DNA from: Alphaproteobacteria bacterium
GTDB taxonomy: Bacteria; Pseudomonadota; Alphaproteobacteria; Sphingomonadales; Emcibacteraceae
Reading direction: 5' to 3'
Assembly (NCBI GenBank): GCA_002401455.1
Contig: NVTE01000009.1
Coordinates: 1-64,000 of the forward strand
Length of the DNA stretch: 64,000 nucleotides
Positions 12,748-21,906 of the stretch are shown in pieces. The notes beneath the pieces are model-generated. The model was not told the DNA's origin. It made no database searches and was given only the letters and a program-made list of their open reading frames with translations. Position numbers and translations under genes: made by a program. Position 1 is the first letter of the stretch, and each line of letters starts with the position of its first letter.

Positions 12748-13950
12748 TTATTTCGGTGGAGAACTCTCGTTTTCCACCCGCCGGACTGATCTGACCATGA
12801 ATAGGACCAACAGACACAGACCCGCCATGAAATAATAGGTCTGGCCGCCAAATACATCATACAGGGGACCCGAAAGCAACATCACGAGCCCCAATGCCAT
12901 CCCCATAGGGACCGAACTATAGAGCGACTGGGCAGTGGTGAAATATTTATCCGGCACCCGGGTCGACAGATAATACATGGCGACCAGATGGGATGCGCCG
13001 TAGGTCAGGCCGTGAAAGGTCTGGACAATGACCAGCAACGGTAAGGAGGAGGTCTGGGCCAGCACTATCCAGCGCACAGCTCCAAAGGCGGCAATGATCG
13101 CCAGCAGATACATGGGCCGAACTCGGCTAACAAGCCGCCCCCCAAAGATAAACACCAGGACTTCGGCCACCACCCCGATGGCCCACAAGACCCCGATGGC
13201 CCCATTATCCAGTCCCTGGGTCGCCCAGTGAATACTGCCCATGACATAAACAAAGCCGTGGCTCATCTGAATCAGACTGAGCACCACAAGGAACATGATA
13301 AACGGTCGGCTGGTCAGCAAGAACTTCAGCGGAGAGAGACCCTCCGCCCCCTGCTCGGTGTGAAGAGGAGCAGGTTTCCGCTCCTCTCGGGGCAGAAAGA
13401 AGACGGCAAAAAAGGTGATCACCAGACTGCCCAAACAAAAATACAGAAAATTGTCGTAACCAAAATGATCCAGGTACTTGCCAAACAAAACCGAGACGAG
13501 GACAAACACGATCGAGCCCACAGATCGCACCCGGCCATATTGCAGGCCATATTTATCACAGGTCCGGACCGCATAGCTTTCCATCAGGGGAGACATGGCA
13601 CTGAGCGCAACTGAAAACAGCAAAGTCACCAGGACAAAATGGGAGAAACTGCTGATGAAGAAATAACCGACAAAGAAAAAGGACGCCAACGCCTGAAGCA
13701 CCATCATTGGCCGGCGCACGGTGCCCCATTTGTCACATAACTGGGCAATGAAGGGTGAGGATAATACCTTCAGAAGCGATGGAAACCCCAGCAGAAAACC
13801 AATTTCACCGGGCGACATTCCGACCTTGGCCAACCACAATGCCCAAAAGGGCAGGACGATGCCCACATAGAGAAAAAAGCCGCTATAGACCCCGGCCACC
13901 TTATAGGCCACCGGCTTTCTAAAACTGCTGATATTTTCTTTCTGGGTCAT
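12748..13950 (-). CDS. MFS transporter, PPP/HcaT-like (MFS_1_like)
   Basis: 400 residues, twelve predicted membrane helices. The N-terminus (VYSGFFLYVGIVLPFWALWL, then MSPGEIGFLLGFPSLLKVLSSPFIAQLCDKWG) matches the phenylpropionate permease (HcaT)/MFS_1_like group rather than drug exporters, including the loop-2 CDKWG segment. The substrate is unknown; members carry aromatic acids or other small organic anions or nucleosides. It lies downstream of the reductive-dehalogenase-like gene on the same strand with a 56-bp gap, so they may share a transcript, in which case it might bring in that enzyme's substrate. That link is only positional. Confidence 0.82.
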   Translation of the reverse strand: MTQKENISSFRKPVAYKVAGVYSGFFLYVGIVLPFWALWLAKVGMSPGEIGFLLGFPSLLKVLSSPFIAQLCDKWGTVRRPMMVLQALASFFFVGYFFISSFSHFVLVTLLFSVALSAMSPLMESYAVRTCDKYGLQYGRVRSVGSIVFVLVSVLFGKYLDHFGYDNFLYFCLGSLVITFFAVFFLPREERKPAPLHTEQGAEGLSPLKFLLTSRPFIMFLVVLSLIQMSHGFVYVMGSIHWATQGLDNGAIGVLWAIGVVAEVLVFIFGGRLVSRVRPMYLLAIIAAFGAVRWIVLAQTSSLPLLVIVQTFHGLTYGASHLVAMYYLSTRVPDKYFTTAQSLYSSVPMGMALGLVMLLSGPLYDVFGGQTYYFMAGLCLLVLFMVRSVRRVENESSPPK

Positions 13951-14006: not shown

Positions 14007-15236
14007 TTAGTCAACGCTTTTCTTCTGCCACCAGTCGGCCGACTTTACCCGGCGGCGGCGGTTATATTTGTCATCCAGCCACAGGGCCAGCTTCCGGAAC
14101 CGCCCCCCGGCCAGCTTTTGCCAGACCCGGTTATACCATTTGCTATAATCGCGATTATAGGGACAAACCCGTATACAAATGGAACAATCCGTATTCTGGT
14201 TGACCCAGAATTTAAAACATTTCTCCGCATCCGTTGACCATTTGACAACGCCTTTCAGGTTAGAGCGATTAAACATCAGATCGGACGGAGCCTCAAAGCT
14301 AATGGCCTTGGGGGGACAACCCTTGGCACAGCGATTGCAGATATCGCAAAACGCCTTAACCCCGAAGCTTTTCGGTTTGTCATGAACCAGCGGCATGTCG
14401 GTAAAAATTTTACCCAGCCGAAGTCGCGCGCCAAATTCCGGGGTAATCAGCAGGCTATGACGCCCGCCTTCGCCCAGCCCCGCCTGAACCGCCAGCGGCA
14501 CCGCCAGGGCACTGTCATTCATGGTGGCATAGGCCCGGTAACCCAGATTACGGATATATTGTGTGATCGTCAACAGGGTCACACAATCATTAGTATAGCC
14601 CATTCCCGTCGCCGATCCAGCCAGAGCTGACGGCACCGTTGCCGTCAGGTCCTTATCCATGGCCTCCCCCGTGACAATGACATTGGGCAGGTCGTTGGGA
14701 ATATCTAGCGGCTTACATTTTCCCTTGGTGTCATATATCCCGTCATACATCCAGCGCTCATCATAGGCACATATACCCACCAGATCGGCCCCGGCAAAGG
14801 CGGCAACCTTGCGAATATCATTGGTTGCTTGTTCGGAAGAATCAAATTCATAGGGCTCGTGCCAGCCATCATCATGGGATGTAAAATGATCGTGAAATCC
14901 TTCCTTCCGGCCATCCTTCTGTTCCCGCAGCACATTGCAGACATGCCAGGCCGCGTTCCGCAAGGCATAGTCACGCTGACTGAAACCATCTGATTTCCGG
15001 GCCTTGGCATTGGGCATGTAATAGCCCTGATAAAAATCCATCACCTTCTGGCTTGAGACATCATCATCCCACAGGGCCCGACAAAAAACATCATCCCGCT
15101 GGCTGAATTTCTCGAATGTTTCCAGAACCTCGATTCCAGTCAGATCATCAATATCACGACGATAATCAAAATAATTTTTTCGTTCCGACGCTTTTTCGGC
15201 TATAGAAGAGTCTGCTACTTTTGCACTCGCACTCAT
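14007..15236 (-). CDS. reductive dehalogenase-like (RdhA family) 4Fe-4S protein, cytoplasmic
   Basis: 409 residues from the ATG at 15236; the ORF track's GTG at 15278 adds 14 residues encoded by what looks like a regulatory region. The C-terminal third has two iron-sulfur motifs in the RdhA arrangement: CDICNRCAKGCP (about 297-308), then a distant Cys (AEKC, about 340) with CSICIRVCPYN (about 351). The middle carries DLVGICAYDERWMYDG, typical of the corrinoid-binding nitroreductase-like fold of RdhA and its relatives. There is no twin-arginine signal and no RdhB anchor gene, so it is not a classical respiratory enzyme and should be cytoplasmic. A divergent MarR regulator lies next to it. It may be a catabolic dehalogenase or a related B12 enzyme, queuosine reductase being excluded by motif layout and length. 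Confidence 0.75.
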   Translation of the reverse strand: MSASAKVADSSIAEKASERKNYFDYRRDIDDLTGIEVLETFEKFSQRDDVFCRALWDDDVSSQKVMDFYQGYYMPNAKARKSDGFSQRDYALRNAAWHVCNVLREQKDGRKEGFHDHFTSHDDGWHEPYEFDSSEQATNDIRKVAAFAGADLVGICAYDERWMYDGIYDTKGKCKPLDIPNDLPNVIVTGEAMDKDLTATVPSALAGSATGMGYTNDCVTLLTITQYIRNLGYRAYATMNDSALAVPLAVQAGLGEGGRHSLLITPEFGARLRLGKIFTDMPLVHDKPKSFGVKAFCDICNRCAKGCPPKAISFEAPSDLMFNRSNLKGVVKWSTDAEKCFKFWVNQNTDCSICIRVCPYNRDYSKWYNRVWQKLAGGRFRKLALWLDDKYNRRRRVKSADWWQKKSVD

Positions 15237-15295
15237 ATCAATCTTTCTGATATATAATAAGGAGGTAAGGGATGGCACATATCATAGCAGAATAC

Positions 15296-15336
15296 TGTTT
15301 GTTATCAAACATCTTTCTGCAACAATATGATATAAT
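15296..15336 (+). promoter_or_regulatory. MarR promoter with operator-like palindrome
   Basis: TGTTTGTTATCAAACA (15296-15311) is a perfect 6-4-6 inverted repeat. It is followed 19 bp later by TATAAT (15331-15336), a consensus -10. Both lie between the two divergent genes if the MarR protein starts at GTG 15368. Such placement fits a MarR repressor site covering both promoters. No good -35 is visible. Confidence 0.5.
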
Positions 15337-15367
15337 ACGATTTATTCATTTATACAGGGGATGTAGT

Positions 15368-15832
15368 GTGAAAAAAAAAGAGTTAAGTTATGGTATGCTG
15401 GATAGAATGGTCGGCCTGGAACTGCGTAAGGCCCAGATGCTGGCCCGCCAGACTTTTCTGGACCTGTTGAAGGGGCACATCCTGCCCGGGCATTTCACTA
15501 TCCTGGTCCTGATCGCCAATAACCCGGGACAAAGCCAAAGCCGTATTGCCGAAGCGGCAGGGTTTGACCGCTCCACGCTGGTACCGGTCCTGAAGCAATT
15601 TGAAAAAGACGGCTTGATCGAAAGGGTAGCGGCCCGCAATGACCGTCGGTCAAAAACCATGACCATCACGGCCAAAGGAAAGAAGCTCATTAAAAAATTT
15701 AATGACGACATCAAAAGGCTGGAAGATCGGCTGGTTGAGGGCCTGGGCCAGGAAAAACATGCCCAGCTTTCGGACCTCCTGATCCAGTTCCAGCACTTGC
15801 TTCAAAGCTGGACAAAAAAAGACGGCGATTAA
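15368..15832 (+). CDS. MarR family transcriptional regulator
   Basis: 154 residues from GTG 15368, the usual MarR length. The ORF track starts at ATG 15272, which has a strong AAGGAGG but would add an unlike 32-residue stretch and would put a palindrome and a TATAAT inside the gene; GGGGA lies 6 nt before the GTG. The winged helix is clear: QSRIAEAAGFDRSTLVPVLKQFEKDGLIERVAARNDRRSKTMTIT, with the D-R-R wing. The flanking helices form the dimer interface. It is divergent from the RdhA-like gene. MarR-type regulators are known beside reductive dehalogenase genes in organohalide-respiring bacteria, so it probably controls that neighbour in response to its substrate. The start site is uncertain. 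Confidence 0.87.
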   Translation: MKKKELSYGMLDRMVGLELRKAQMLARQTFLDLLKGHILPGHFTILVLIANNPGQSQSRIAEAAGFDRSTLVPVLKQFEKDGLIERVAARNDRRSKTMTITAKGKKLIKKFNDDIKRLEDRLVEGLGQEKHAQLSDLLIQFQHLLQSWTKKDGD

Positions 15833-15854: not shown

Positions 15855-16436
15855 TTAAATAGAGGTCTGATAGAGAATATCTTCCAGGTCCCGGCACGGC
15901 ATCTTCAGAACCCTAATGGTCAGGGTGTAAGAAAATCCGGCCCGGCACATACTGGCCAATTCTTTTTCCATCAACTCTGCCCCATCATGACGGATACTGA
16001 AGGCCCCGAATCTTCTTTTGCGGGCATATTTCACCGCTGCCAGAAAATCCATATCCTCATATTGTTCCGCCAGAGCCTCCAACACCTCTGCCACCAGGTC
16101 GGCCGCCACCCCCTTGGCCTGTAATTTCTGGCCAACCTTCATTTTTGAATTGCCGCTGCGAATCAGGGATCGGGCCCGGGCCTCAGCATATTGCCGGTCA
16201 TTGACAAGATTTTGCTGCACCGCCTTGTGCACGATATCGTCAATCCAGTCCTTAGCCTGTGGCATGAGGGCTTGTGTGTCCGAGCCTTCCTCGTCCGATA
16301 ACCGTCGCCGGGCTTTACGGCCCAGAACCTCCCGCAGGTTTTTTTCCGTGGTTGCAAATCTTTGCAGGTAGTTATAGGTTGCTCTCACCAGATAATCCCG
16401 CGTCAAGACCGGCCTTTTTGATTTTCCTTCTCTCAT
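15855..16436 (-). CDS. recX: regulatory protein RecX
   Basis: 193 residues. RecX proteins bind RecA filaments and modulate their activity. The family pattern is seen in LVRATYNYLQRFATTEKNLREVL near the N-terminus, the middle WIDDIVHKAVQQNLVNDRQYAEARARSLIRSGNSKMKVGQKLQAKGV, and the C-terminal AVKYARKRRFGAF, the three tandem three-helix repeats of RecX. It is not adjacent to recA, which lies about 42 kb away in this window. It is divergent from the DMT transporter gene with only 22 bp between starts, so the two promoters must overlap or lie inside coding sequence. Confidence 0.88.
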   Translation of the reverse strand: MREGKSKRPVLTRDYLVRATYNYLQRFATTEKNLREVLGRKARRRLSDEEGSDTQALMPQAKDWIDDIVHKAVQQNLVNDRQYAEARARSLIRSGNSKMKVGQKLQAKGVAADLVAEVLEALAEQYEDMDFLAAVKYARKRRFGAFSIRHDGAELMEKELASMCRAGFSYTLTIRVLKMPCRDLEDILYQTSI

Positions 16437-17568: not shown

Positions 17569-19317
17569 ATGCGTGAACCAATTCCAACACATGACACGAC
17601 CCTTCCGCGCAGGCTTGCTGATTTTGGCACCCTGTTGGAAGCTATCGAATATGCAGCCAAAGGCATCCGGGGCCTGAATTTTTATTCCCCCCGCGGCGAA
17701 CTGGAAACCAGCATCAGCTTTAAGGAAATCGCGAAGAAGTCCCAGGAGATCGGTCGGCGCTTCATCCATTTCGGCATCAAAAAAGGCTCCCGCGTGGCCC
17801 TGATTGCCGAAACCAATGATGAATTTGTCTGTTATTTCATCGGCTGCCAATATGCCGGTCTGTTGCCGGTCCCCCTGCCCCTGCCAACCTCTTTCGGCGG
17901 CCGCGAAGGCTATACCGCCCAACTGAACCAGCAAATGAAAAGCTGTGGCGCCCGGGTCGCCATTTCCGCGTCCTATATGCTGCCGTTACTGGATGAGGCC
18001 ACATCGGGCCTGAAAAAAATGAAATTTGTCGGCACCTCCGACACCTTCGAAGCCCAGGCATCCCTGAAAGAGATCAAGAATGTCGCCCTGCCGGAAGCCC
18101 ATCCGGAAGACCTGGCCTATCTGCAATATTCATCAGGCAGCACCCGCTTTCCCCATGGCGTGGCCGTAACCCATAAATCCTTGCTGGCCAACTGCCACGG
18201 CATTGGCAACGAAGGCATGGACCTGACAGAAGATGACCGGGTTGTTTCCTGGCTGCCCTTCTATCATGATATGGGCCTGGTCGGCACCCTGCTGGCCCCC
18301 ATCGCCAATCAGGTGACCACCGACTATCTGGCGACCGAGGCCTTTGCCCGCCGTCCCCTGCAGTGGCTCAAGCTGATTTCAAAAAATAAGGGCACCCTGG
18401 CCTATAGCCCGACCTTTGGCTATGACATCTGCGCCCGTCGCGCCAGCCCGACCAAAATCGCCGACCTGGATTTATCCAGCTGGCGGGTGGCCGGTATTGG
18501 CGGCGACATGATCCGGTCCGATGTCCTGACCAATTTCCAGGACACCTTCAAGGACGTTGGTTTCCGACACACAACCTTTGTACCAAGCTATGGCCTGGCG
18601 GAATGCACCCTGGCGGTCAGCTTCGCCCGCAAGAATACCGGCTTTGAAATTGACCTGATCGATGAAAAAGTTCTGACTGGCGAAAAAAAATTCCTGAAAG
18701 AAGCCAAGGTCAATGGCAACGGGGTTAATTATCGCAATGTGGTCAATTGTGGCATCCCCATCGCTGAATATGAACTTGAAATTCGCGATGACAATAATAT
18801 CGACCTCGGCGAATATCAGATTGGCCGGGTTTGTGTGCGCGGAACCAGCGTCATGGTCGGCTATTTCGAGGACCCCGAGGCCACCGACAGCTGCCTGTCC
18901 GAAGACAGATGGCTCGATACCGGCGACATGGGTTATATGAAAGAAGGCGCGCTCTATATCATTGGCCGGGTCAAAGACCTGATCATTATCAATGGCAAAA
19001 ACCATTGGCCCCAGGATATTGAATGGGCTGTCGAACAGTTGGACGACCTGCGCAGCGGCGATACCGCGGCCGTATCCATTCCCGGTGAACGGGATGAGGA
19101 GATCCCGGCCATTCTGGTACAATGCCGCACCCGGGACGCCGCAGAACGCACCGCCATGGAAAATAAAATCAAGGACACCGTTCATAACATGATCGGCATT
19201 TCTCCGGTTGTTGCCTTAATTCCACCGCGCTCTCTGCCCCGCACCTCCTCCGGTAAATTAAGCCGAGTGAAAGCCAGAAAGCAATATCTGGCCGGCGACC
19301 TGGTTTTTAATTCCTGA
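17569..19317 (+). CDS. fatty acyl-AMP ligase / acyl-ACP synthetase of the sphingolipid locus
   Basis: 582 residues of the ANL superfamily, FAAL subgroup. The phosphate loop is YLQYSSGSTRFPHGV (about 184-198), followed by LPFYHDMGLVGTL, the adenylate motif SYGLAECTLAV, and WLDTGDMGYMKEGALYIIGRVKDLIIINGKNHWPQDIE at the hinge. The NHWPQDIE form is characteristic of FAALs that pass acyl-AMP to a carrier protein instead of CoA. It heads a run of epimerase, ACP and serine palmitoyltransferase genes, the same set as the acyl-ACP synthetase region of the Caulobacter sphingolipid locus. It most likely charges the ACP encoded 1.1 kb downstream with a fatty acid. No clear Shine-Dalgarno precedes the chosen start. 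Confidence 0.88.
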   Translation: MREPIPTHDTTLPRRLADFGTLLEAIEYAAKGIRGLNFYSPRGELETSISFKEIAKKSQEIGRRFIHFGIKKGSRVALIAETNDEFVCYFIGCQYAGLLPVPLPLPTSFGGREGYTAQLNQQMKSCGARVAISASYMLPLLDEATSGLKKMKFVGTSDTFEAQASLKEIKNVALPEAHPEDLAYLQYSSGSTRFPHGVAVTHKSLLANCHGIGNEGMDLTEDDRVVSWLPFYHDMGLVGTLLAPIANQVTTDYLATEAFARRPLQWLKLISKNKGTLAYSPTFGYDICARRASPTKIADLDLSSWRVAGIGGDMIRSDVLTNFQDTFKDVGFRHTTFVPSYGLAECTLAVSFARKNTGFEIDLIDEKVLTGEKKFLKEAKVNGNGVNYRNVVNCGIPIAEYELEIRDDNNIDLGEYQIGRVCVRGTSVMVGYFEDPEATDSCLSEDRWLDTGDMGYMKEGALYIIGRVKDLIIINGKNHWPQDIEWAVEQLDDLRSGDTAAVSIPGERDEEIPAILVQCRTRDAAERTAMENKIKDTVHNMIGISPVVALIPPRSLPRTSSGKLSRVKARKQYLAGDLVFNS

Positions 19318-19415
19318 ACAGTTAATCTAATTATTGACGGATCAACCATCCAGACGGTAACCTGCTCCCACAGAGGTGCCCTAAAGGAGTGCCAACAAGG
19401 GATGCTCAAAGTCAT

Positions 19416-20351
19416 ATGACAAAAATAGCCGCCGTTACCGGTGCCACCGGATTTGTCGGGACACATCTGGTGCGCGACCTGATCGCCCAGGGTTTTCAGG
19501 TCCGGGCTCTGACCCGCAGGCCCCAGCCCCCAACCGACAATATCACCTGGATCGAAGGCGACCTGGACAATCTGCCTGCCCTTGGAAAACTTATCAAGAC
19601 GGCGGATGTCCTGTTTCATGTGGCCGGTCTGGTCAAGGCCCGCCAACCCCAGGAATTCGACCGGGTCAACAGCCTGAGCGTCCAGACCCTACTCACCGTC
19701 ATCCATAAATCCACTGCCCAACCGCATTTTATCCTGCTGTCCTCCCTGGCCGCCCGGGAAAGACATCTGTCGAGCTATGCCCAGAGCAAACGCCGGGGCG
19801 AAGAAATCCTGATCGATCAGGCACAAGACCTGCCCTGGACCATCCTGCGGCCGCCGGGAATTTATGGCCCCCACGACATGGAGACCCTGAAAATATTCAA
19901 GGCGGTTACCTGTCGAATCACCCCGCTCCCCGGGGGCGCTAACAACCGGGCCTCCTGGATTTATGCCCCGGATCTCGCCCGTGCCATGATCGCCGTCGCC
20001 CAGAATCAGGCCTGTTTTGGACAAATTCTGGATGTGGACGATGGCACCCCAGAGGGCTACTCCAATCAGGACATGTATGAAACAGCCGCAAACATACTGG
20101 ATATCAGAGCTTTTCAAGTGGTTATTCCCAAATTTATCCTGAAATTTATCGCCCATATCAATGTCTTATTTTCGACATTATTCGGCTATACCCCCATGGT
20201 CACACCCGATAAAGTTAATGAATTATGTTACCCGGACTGGATATGTCGGGGACCACATGTTATGAGAATGACAAACTGGAAACCGGAAACAGACCTGAAA
20301 CAGGGGTTTGAAAAAACCTTGAAATGGTATAAAGACCATAATTTAGTATAG
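19416..20351 (+). CDS. NAD-dependent epimerase/dehydratase-like reductase (ceramide reductase candidate)
   Basis: 311 residues from ATG 19416, which places the Rossmann motif TGATGFVGTHL near residue 8 as usual; the ORF track's GTG at 19389 has AGGAG overlapping it and adds nine residues. Catalytic residues of extended SDR enzymes are visible as Ser in LLSSLAA and the YxxxK of SSYAQSKRRGEE. The family includes epimerases, dehydratases and ketoreductases. In the Caulobacter sphingolipid locus a protein of this type (CerR) reduces the keto group of the long-chain base or ceramide. The position between the acyl-ACP synthetase and ACP/SPT genes supports the same role here. Confidence 0.85.
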   Translation: MTKIAAVTGATGFVGTHLVRDLIAQGFQVRALTRRPQPPTDNITWIEGDLDNLPALGKLIKTADVLFHVAGLVKARQPQEFDRVNSLSVQTLLTVIHKSTAQPHFILLSSLAARERHLSSYAQSKRRGEEILIDQAQDLPWTILRPPGIYGPHDMETLKIFKAVTCRITPLPGGANNRASWIYAPDLARAMIAVAQNQACFGQILDVDDGTPEGYSNQDMYETAANILDIRAFQVVIPKFILKFIAHINVLFSTLFGYTPMVTPDKVNELCYPDWICRGPHVMRMTNWKPETDLKQGFEKTLKWYKDHNLV

Positions 20352-20428
20352 TGTACCGAGAGCGGTTTCAATTTTGCAGCACAGATGTTGCAAGTTTGGT
20401 TCTGGCCATAATGCGGATGGAAAAATGT

Positions 20429-20677
20429 ATGACCCAAAGCGTCGATGAAATTTTTGAGCAGATTTGCGCGCTCATCAAGCCCTTCAATAATAAGAATGTT
20501 CCCCTGAACAAAGACACCGTCTTCAGTGTCGATCTGGAGCTTGATTCCCTAACCGTCATGGATCTTCTGTCTGAAATTGAAGACGAGTTTGATATCACTG
20601 TCCCCCTCAATATGCTTCCTGACCTGGAAACAATTGGCCAATTCACCCAAGCCGTACAGAAATTGCTGAGCGAATAA
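20429..20677 (+). CDS. acyl carrier protein dedicated to sphingolipid synthesis
   Basis: 82 residues from ATG 20429; in-frame ATGs at 20411 and 20417 give slightly longer forms, and the ORF track begins too far upstream. It has the four-helix acidic ACP pattern with the phosphopantetheine serine in LELDSLTVMDLLSEIEDEFD. Its stop overlaps the ATG of the serine palmitoyltransferase gene by 1 bp (TAATG), the tightest possible coupling. In Caulobacter the equivalent ACP supplies acyl chains to serine palmitoyltransferase in place of CoA, and the upstream acyl-AMP ligase would load it. It is distinct from the housekeeping AcpP. Confidence 0.87.
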   Translation: MTQSVDEIFEQICALIKPFNNKNVPLNKDTVFSVDLELDSLTVMDLLSEIEDEFDITVPLNMLPDLETIGQFTQAVQKLLSE

Positions 20678-21906
20678 TGACCCTTGATCTTTTTGATAAA
20701 TTTGACCCGATCCTGAAGGATTACAACAGCCTGCCCGACGGGGCTGCCAATCCTTTCACCGTCAGCATGGAAAAAGTTCTGTCGCCGACGACCGCCATTA
20801 TCAATGGCCGGGAAACCATCCTTGCCGGCACCAATAATTATATGGGCATGACCTTTAATGCGGAATGTATCGCCGCCGCCCAAGAAGCCTTAAGCACCCA
20901 GGGCACTGGCACCACCGGTTCGCGAGTCCTCAATGGCACCTATAACAGCCATAAGCAACTGGAAACCACCCTGAAAGAATTCTACGGTACCGACCATGCC
21001 ATCGTTTTTTCCACCGGGTATCAGGCCAATCTCGGCGTTATCTCCACCCTGGCCGGGCCTAAAGACTATGTGGTCATTGATGCCGACAGTCATGCCAGCA
21101 TTTATGACGGCTGTGCCATGGGCAACGCCACCGTCGTCCGTTTCAAGCATAATAACCCGGAAAATCTTGATAAACGTCTGACCCGTATCCGCCGGGATGA
21201 CCCGGAAGCCGGCATTCTGGTGGTGCTCGAAGGCGTCTATAGCATGCTCGGTGATCAGGCTCCCCTGAAAGAACTGACCAGAATTTCCAAAGATCACAAG
21301 GCCTATGTCCTGGTGGACGAAGCCCATTCCATTGGTGTCTTCGGCGAAACCGGTCGCGGTGTCGCCCAGGAACAGGGCGTTGAGGATCAGGTCGACTTCA
21401 TCATCGGTACTTTCAGCAAGAGCGTCGGCACCATTGGCGGCTATTGTGTCTCCAACCATCCGAAATTCGAGGCCCTGCGCCTGGTCTGCCGACCCTATAT
21501 CTTCACCGCCTCTCTGCCGCCGTCTGTGGTCGCCTCGGCCACTAAGGCCCTGGAACTGATTGCCAGCACCAATCTGCGCAGCAAACTGCTGGATAATTCC
21601 AGGAAGCTCAACAAAGGGCTGAAATCAATCGGGTTTACCATGGGCACCACCGGGGAAAGCCCCATCGCCGCCATCATCGTCGACGACCAGAATACCGCCA
21701 TTGCTTTCTGGGGCGAAATGCTCAAGGAAGGCGTTTATGTCAATCTGGCCCTGCCGCCAGCAACGCCAAACCGCCTCAATCTGATGCGCTGCAGCCTGTC
21801 TGCCGCTCATACTTTTGAGCAGATTGACTTTATGCTGGAAAAATTCGAATTGGTCGGCAAAAAACTGGGCCTGATCCAGGAAGTCTCCGCCCGGGCCACA
21901 GCTTAA
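20677..21906 (+). CDS. spt: serine palmitoyltransferase (alpha-oxoamine synthase family)
   Basis: 409 residues, PLP-dependent alpha-oxoamine synthase. The PLP lysine is in GTFSKSVGTIGG (about Lys248), with the ring-stacking His in DADSHASIYDG (about 139) and the Asp/His of VDEAHSIGVFG (about 214/217). It condenses serine with an acyl thioester to 3-ketosphinganine. The family also includes KBL and BioF; the direct coupling to an ACP gene and the presence of acyl ligase, epimerase, kinase and GNAT ceramide-synthase-like genes make SPT much the best fit. It is a soluble cytoplasmic homodimer in bacteria. The gene converges on the ceramide-kinase-like gene with 7 bp between stops. Confidence 0.88.
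   Translation: MTLDLFDKFDPILKDYNSLPDGAANPFTVSMEKVLSPTTAIINGRETILAGTNNYMGMTFNAECIAAAQEALSTQGTGTTGSRVLNGTYNSHKQLETTLKEFYGTDHAIVFSTGYQANLGVISTLAGPKDYVVIDADSHASIYDGCAMGNATVVRFKHNNPENLDKRLTRIRRDDPEAGILVVLEGVYSMLGDQAPLKELTRISKDHKAYVLVDEAHSIGVFGETGRGVAQEQGVEDQVDFIIGTFSKSVGTIGGYCVSNHPKFEALRLVCRPYIFTASLPPSVVASATKALELIASTNLRSKLLDNSRKLNKGLKSIGFTMGTTGESPIAAIIVDDQNTAIAFWGEMLKEGVYVNLALPPATPNRLNLMRCSLSAAHTFEQIDFMLEKFELVGKKLGLIQEVSARATA

Follow-up and report, generated by a model that had tools for sequence, protein, structure and literature searches.

What does a reductive-dehalogenase-like protein do in the cytoplasm of a marine alphaproteobacterium, on which compounds does it act, and what role does the regulator gene facing it play? 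These questions are raised by two divergent genes, rdhA and marR, in a stretch of 64,000 nucleotides of DNA (the window). A first-pass annotation of the letters alone had pointed to the iron-sulfur motifs of RdhA, to the missing twin-arginine (Tat) signal and RdhB anchor and to a MarR-type regulator with a promoter palindrome. Each of these features was recovered by the profile, structure and comparative analyses described below, and their positions are given in Table 1.

Table 1. Positions of the rdhA-marR locus, its functional elements and its flanking genes in the window.
Feature	Position	Strand	Basis
MFS transporter, 3-phenylpropionate-transporter-like, cassette flank	12748..13950	-	PRK11128 247.9 vs cut-off 259
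rdhA, Tat-less reductive dehalogenase catalytic subunit, 409 aa	14007..15236	-	TIGR02486, PDB search, fold, tree
Fe-S motif 2 codons, CSICIRVCP, residues 351-359	14160..14186	-	cysteines invariant in 59 family members
C340 codon, eighth cluster cysteine of RdhA	14217-14219	-	
Fe-S motif 1 codons, CDICNRCAKGCP, residues 297-308	14313..14348	-	cysteines invariant in 59 family members
Arg273 codon, aligned with PceA Arg305; Lys in NpRdhA group	14418..14420	-	
Asn240 codon, aligned with PceA Asn272; His/Asp in NpRdhA group	14517..14519	-	
Tyr214 codon, aligned with PceA proton donor Tyr246	14595..14597	-	alignment to 4uqu; invariant
Predicted rdhA promoter, -35 TTGATA 15308-15303, extended -10 TATGAT 15286-15281	15281..15308	-	consensus scan only, 10/12 matches
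Candidate MarR operator, 16-bp palindrome TGTTTGTTATCAAACA, family consensus TGTTTGATATCAAACA	15296..15311	.	conservation in MarR-bearing loci
marR, divergent MarR-family regulator, 154 aa from GTG	15368..15832	+	PF01047; start conserved with relatives
recX-like gene, other cassette flank	15855..16436	-	reading of the protein sequence alone

Family assignment of the rdhA product

The rdhA frame remains open to an upstream GTG (14007-15278, minus strand). This longer form was weighed, but the relatives favour the shorter one, with ATG 15236 as the likely start. The product scored 178.5 bits with the NCBIfam RDH model TIGR02486, above the cut-off of 160.35, and 60.1 bits with the QueG model TIGR00276, far below the cut-off of 200, so that the profile comparison proposed in the first-pass annotation came out on the side of RdhA. 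Among Pfam domains, PF13486 and two 4Fe-4S domains were detected, all above cut-off. The two iron-sulfur motifs and C340 are spaced as in RdhA, in agreement with the layout originally noticed. Tyr214, Asn240, Arg259, Arg273 and the eight cysteines of the two [4Fe-4S] clusters are invariant across the 59 relatives compared; the catalytic residues and those of the B12 site, the latter left to be checked in the first-pass annotation, are present in the window RdhA.

In a sequence search of the PDB, PceA of Desulfitobacterium and Sulfurospirillum gave the best matches (1e-49), followed by NpRdhA (1e-29) and QueG (1e-7). The same order was obtained by a fold search with an AlphaFold model, built with 30 family sequences as input (pLDDT 83, pTM 0.85): PceA was at the top (E 3.5e-25, TM 0.76 to 8q4h), NpRdhA second (TM 0.69) and QueG poor (TM ~0.35). 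By sequence and model, the window protein is thus an RdhA-type enzyme and not QueG, and its sequence indicates that it very probably removes halogen from aromatic compounds.

The absence of export and anchoring features, claimed from the first reading, held as well. The protein contains neither a twin-arginine motif nor a hydrophobic N-terminal segment (among 19-residue segments that begin within the first 60 positions, the highest hydropathy is about 0). Nor does a small gene for an RdhB-like membrane protein lie beside rdhA in the window. The 409 residues constitute the RdhA core only, with no fused reductase domain, and no ferredoxin or reductase gene adjoins rdhA.

Relatives and comparison with known dehalogenases

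The closest relatives of the window RdhA are found in Emcibacter MAGs (83-88% identity), followed by Halieaceae (67-69%), a sister genus of the same family (~61%), Chloroflexi MAGs, both sponge-derived and others (~50%), and Rhodospirillaceae, Burkholderiales and other Proteobacteria (46-49%). In the maximum-likelihood tree, Tat-less, unfused RdhAs of about 400 residues form a well-supported single clade, separate from NpRdhA types and from Tat-type RdhAs, the joins to the outgroups being less certain because of long branches. Within this clade the subclade of the window RdhA shares 46-51% identity with the other subclades and has residues of its own, among them H98, R104, Y129, E191 and Y236. 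No close relative was detected in plasmid and phage collections, and 392 genomes of the order of one Halieaceae relative yielded no additional family member. The genome of the window itself encodes a second RdhA-like protein (L032, G000:C1:55768-56295, ~322 aa), with an RDH score of 99.6 bits, below cut-off, and a QueG match that is not strong.

Many RdhA homologues expressed to date have been inactive on the substrates tried, and one of the eight new homologues described in PMC13101508 was active. The Tat-less Ros_A3X954 from the marine Roseobacter sp. MED193 was purified and converts 2,6-dibromophenol to 2-bromophenol, an activity that is lost in oxygen; its motifs are CDICTKCADACP at 283-294 and CAICMRVCP at 337-345 (PMC13101508). 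Pararhodobacter aggregans A0A2T7UTL8, 72% identical to it, deiodinates triiodophenol, as cited in PMC13101508. In one relative in our collection, L068, the motifs CDICTKCADACP and CAICMRVCP stand at 283 and 337, exactly the positions of Ros_A3X954. In another, L067, the first motif is likewise at 283, and the second begins one position sooner. From these matches of motif and position we infer that Ros_A3X954 almost certainly belongs to the sister subclade of the window RdhA, which would therefore hold a proven debrominase.

The window RdhA shares with Ros_A3X954 and A0A2T7UTL8 the length class (~400 aa), the lack of Tat signal and fused domains, PF13486, the two Fe-S motifs with their 54-residue spacing and, with Ros_A3X954 placed by motif and position, the clade. 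It differs in that it is only about 48-49% identical to L067 and L068, belongs to another subclade and lies under putative MarR control, with amino acid transport genes as neighbours in its relatives. With PceA (Sulfurospirillum multivorans and Desulfitobacterium; 4UQU, 8Q4H) it has in common the Tyr/Asn/Arg active site, the two [4Fe-4S] clusters and the fold, whereas the Tat signal and the membrane partner of PceA, an enzyme of organohalide respiration, are both missing here. The catabolic enzymes NpRdhA and BhbA resemble it in their cytoplasmic, non-respiratory logic; NpRdhA types, however, have Lys for Arg273 and His or Asp for Asn240; most of them are longer fusion proteins, and they branch as a clade of their own, while the window RdhA is unfused and retains Arg273. 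T7RdhA of Acidimicrobiaceae TMED77 is a PceA-like protein for which binding of a corrinoid and of two [4Fe-4S] clusters has been reported (PMC10008544). Its nine reported pocket residues, compared by published positions, map at constant offsets onto F51, F68, Y69, Y72, R93, W97, Y214, F341 and W344 of the window RdhA, but T7RdhA is actinobacterial, and the PFOA proposed as its substrate rests on docking (PMC10008544).

The divergent marR gene and a conserved palindrome

The product of the gene opposite rdhA scored 51.1 bits with PF01047 (cut-off 24.6), which upholds its first assignment to the MarR family. A longer form from ATG 15272, which has a good ribosome site (15260) in front of it, would add an N-terminal extension that is missing in the relatives, and the shorter form is favoured. 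The palindrome noticed at the outset occurs as a single exact copy in the window. It is kept as the family consensus or a close variant in the aligned intergenic regions of the Emcibacter relatives, and within 2 mismatches in all nine MarR-bearing loci, which represent two bacterial classes (the window, L002, L003, L005, L012 and L059, and L004/L097, L124 and L125 of Halieaceae). In relatives without marR the site shows at least 4 mismatches, and one congener (G014) has kept rdhA while both marR and the operator are missing. The association of a conserved 16-bp palindrome with the presence of MarR across two bacterial classes is a new observation, and conservation of the 16-bp form in every MarR-bearing relative indicates that it is more than a chance arrangement. 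Between the two classes the identity of the MarR proteins is only 34-40%, yet they share a DRS-x-x-VP stretch where the recognition helix is expected.

The predicted -35 box of rdhA falls inside the palindrome. Given this overlap, MarR would be expected to repress rdhA, and the sequence makes control through the palindromic operator probable; MarR may in addition repress its own gene. MarR-regulated rdh operons are known from Dehalococcoides, with a MarR protein encoded beside rdhA, and belong to the respiratory type with Tat signal and RdhB. The MarR neighbour is alike in both systems, but the operator and the cassette of the window differ.

An optional two-gene cassette

About half of the genomes in the window's genus carry rdhA. 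The MFS gene next to it is present in all seven high-quality congener genomes, including those without rdhA, and in four congeners (G006, G013, G016 and G017) recX adjoins the MFS gene directly, with neither rdhA nor marR in between. This junction identifies rdhA and marR as an optional two-gene cassette located between recX and the MFS gene. An operon of rdhA and the MFS gene specific for dehalogenation was considered and rejected, since the MFS gene is retained, joined to recX, where rdhA is missing; the transporter is thus not evidence on the substrate.

Further along the window (17569-21906, plus strand) lies a sphingolipid-type cluster, made up of genes for a serine palmitoyltransferase (621.5 vs cut-off 500), a fatty acyl-AMP ligase (796 vs 600), an acyl-carrier-like protein and an epimerase-like protein. 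Its synteny with rdhA is conserved within the genus. The ligase at 17569 groups loosely with ligases found beside rdhA in other lineages, but was set aside as evidence because it is part of this serine palmitoyltransferase cluster.

Proposed function and regulation

We consider it quite likely that the locus as a whole encodes a MarR-repressed, cytoplasmic, non-respiratory dehalogenase of halogenated aromatics. The enzyme would contain a cobamide and two [4Fe-4S] clusters, would receive electrons from a housekeeping ferredoxin or flavodoxin, the donor assumed here, and would replace a halogen on an aromatic compound by hydrogen, with Tyr214 as proton donor. Cobamide is probably available, as cobalamin riboswitches occur in 29 of the 33 family genomes and also in the genome of the window. 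MarR bound to the palindrome between the two genes would block access to the rdhA -35 box and, probably, to the marR promoter as well, until the substrate or a related phenolic binds MarR and releases it. The dehalogenated product would enter ordinary metabolism, so that the role would be detoxification or salvage and not respiration. The first-pass suggestion that algal halogenated compounds serve the bacterium as a source of carbon is, by comparison, speculative.

Brominated and iodinated aromatics are produced in large amounts by marine organisms. The presence of a cytoplasmic dehalogenase with its own putative repressor and operator in common marine lineages of aerobic type suggests that halogen removal there need not rely on anaerobic respirers. 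The window RdhA also adds a new member to a group of enzymes in which debromination of bromophenol has recently been demonstrated for one marine relative.

Natural substrate

Aromatics of the halophenol type are the default reading of the substrate. A narrower form of the same explanation is tentative: in the window's subclade the enzyme would naturally act on halotyrosine, halotryptophan or a closely related derivative, imported by amino acid permeases and fed back into amino acid catabolism once dehalogenated. The relatives tie the enzyme to aromatic amino acid transport and not to phenol catabolism genes. Of 23 genomes with rdhA, 10 have a Trp/Tyr permease gene (PF03222) in single copy, and in five it lies no more than about 5 kb from rdhA. 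In G875 and G838 it follows rdhA on the same strand, 24 and 27 nt downstream; in G419 it is the divergent neighbour; and the distance is about 3 kb in G974 and about 4 kb in the congener G014. By a rough hand reckoning, the probability of such proximity by chance is about 0.25% per genome; the pattern was noticed before it was tested, however, and the cases of G875 and G838 perhaps represent one event. The permease of G974 scores above the cut-off for tryptophan permeases (539 vs 515), and the gene beside it, adjacent to marR, encodes a PLP enzyme similar to kynureninase. A kynureninase-like gene adjoins marR in L124 of Halieaceae, but the kynureninase similarity is far under the cut-off.

A sodium:amino-acid symporter was found next to or near rdhA in genus g5 and in other Halieaceae, although SNF symporters occur in multiple copies per genome, so that their proximity counts for little. 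Additional neighbours are a D-amino acid dehydrogenase in g5 and a homogentisate dioxygenase in Halieaceae. The latter hinted at tyrosine breakdown via homogentisate, a route that was rejected for the window's family, where the dioxygenase gene (hmgA) is essentially absent. The window's own locus contains no amino acid transporter, and no PF03222 permease was detected in its genome, which is 69% complete. Our literature search found no report of an RdhA acting on halogenated amino acids.

The conserved operator and the links to amino acid transporters offer a ready route to the inducer and the substrate. The subclade might represent MarR-switched dehalogenases of halogenated aromatic amino acids (bromo-, chloro- or iodotyrosine, bromotryptophan) in marine Alpha- and Gammaproteobacteria, a B12-dependent counterpart of the flavin-dependent iodotyrosine deiodinase; this extension appears somewhat less likely still than the substrate proposal itself.

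A reading outside dehalogenation altogether, in which the window protein is a corrinoid reductase of QueG-like type or one acting in other epoxide or C-X reduction, is improbable. It would draw on the common superfamily and on the distant similarity to QueG (60 bits), but the QueG score is far under its cut-off, the fold is much closer to PceA (TM about 0.7), the catalytic residues of PceA are conserved and the sister subclade almost certainly includes the proven debrominase. Organohalide respiration with the window RdhA as terminal reductase is highly improbable: the best structural relatives are indeed the respiratory PceA enzymes, but Tat signal, hydrophobic N-terminus, membrane anchor and adjacent rdhB are all missing, the gene occurs in an optional two-gene cassette, and the host lineage, Emcibacter, is generally known as aerobic in type.

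Other rdhA loci

Several related loci showed arrangements of their own. In Halieaceae (L004/L097, L124 and L113), rdhA overlaps at its end with the gene of a conserved protein, about 305-316 aa long, that looks secreted and matches no family. A single Rhodospirillaceae MAG (G423, the genome of L020) gave 17 RdhA-like matches, among them proteins of Tat length, others similar to NpRdhA and short ones. In the sister subclade, rdhA of L026, L064/L082 and L130 is accompanied by genes for an acyl-CoA ligase and for two short Fe-S proteins resembling QueG, which suggests dehalogenation of CoA esters in these cases. In Chloroflexi MAGs (L013-L019), several of them apparently sponge-derived, the Tat-less rdhA is located directly behind an ABC transporter of the spermidine/putrescine type, which may point to a brominated amine as substrate.
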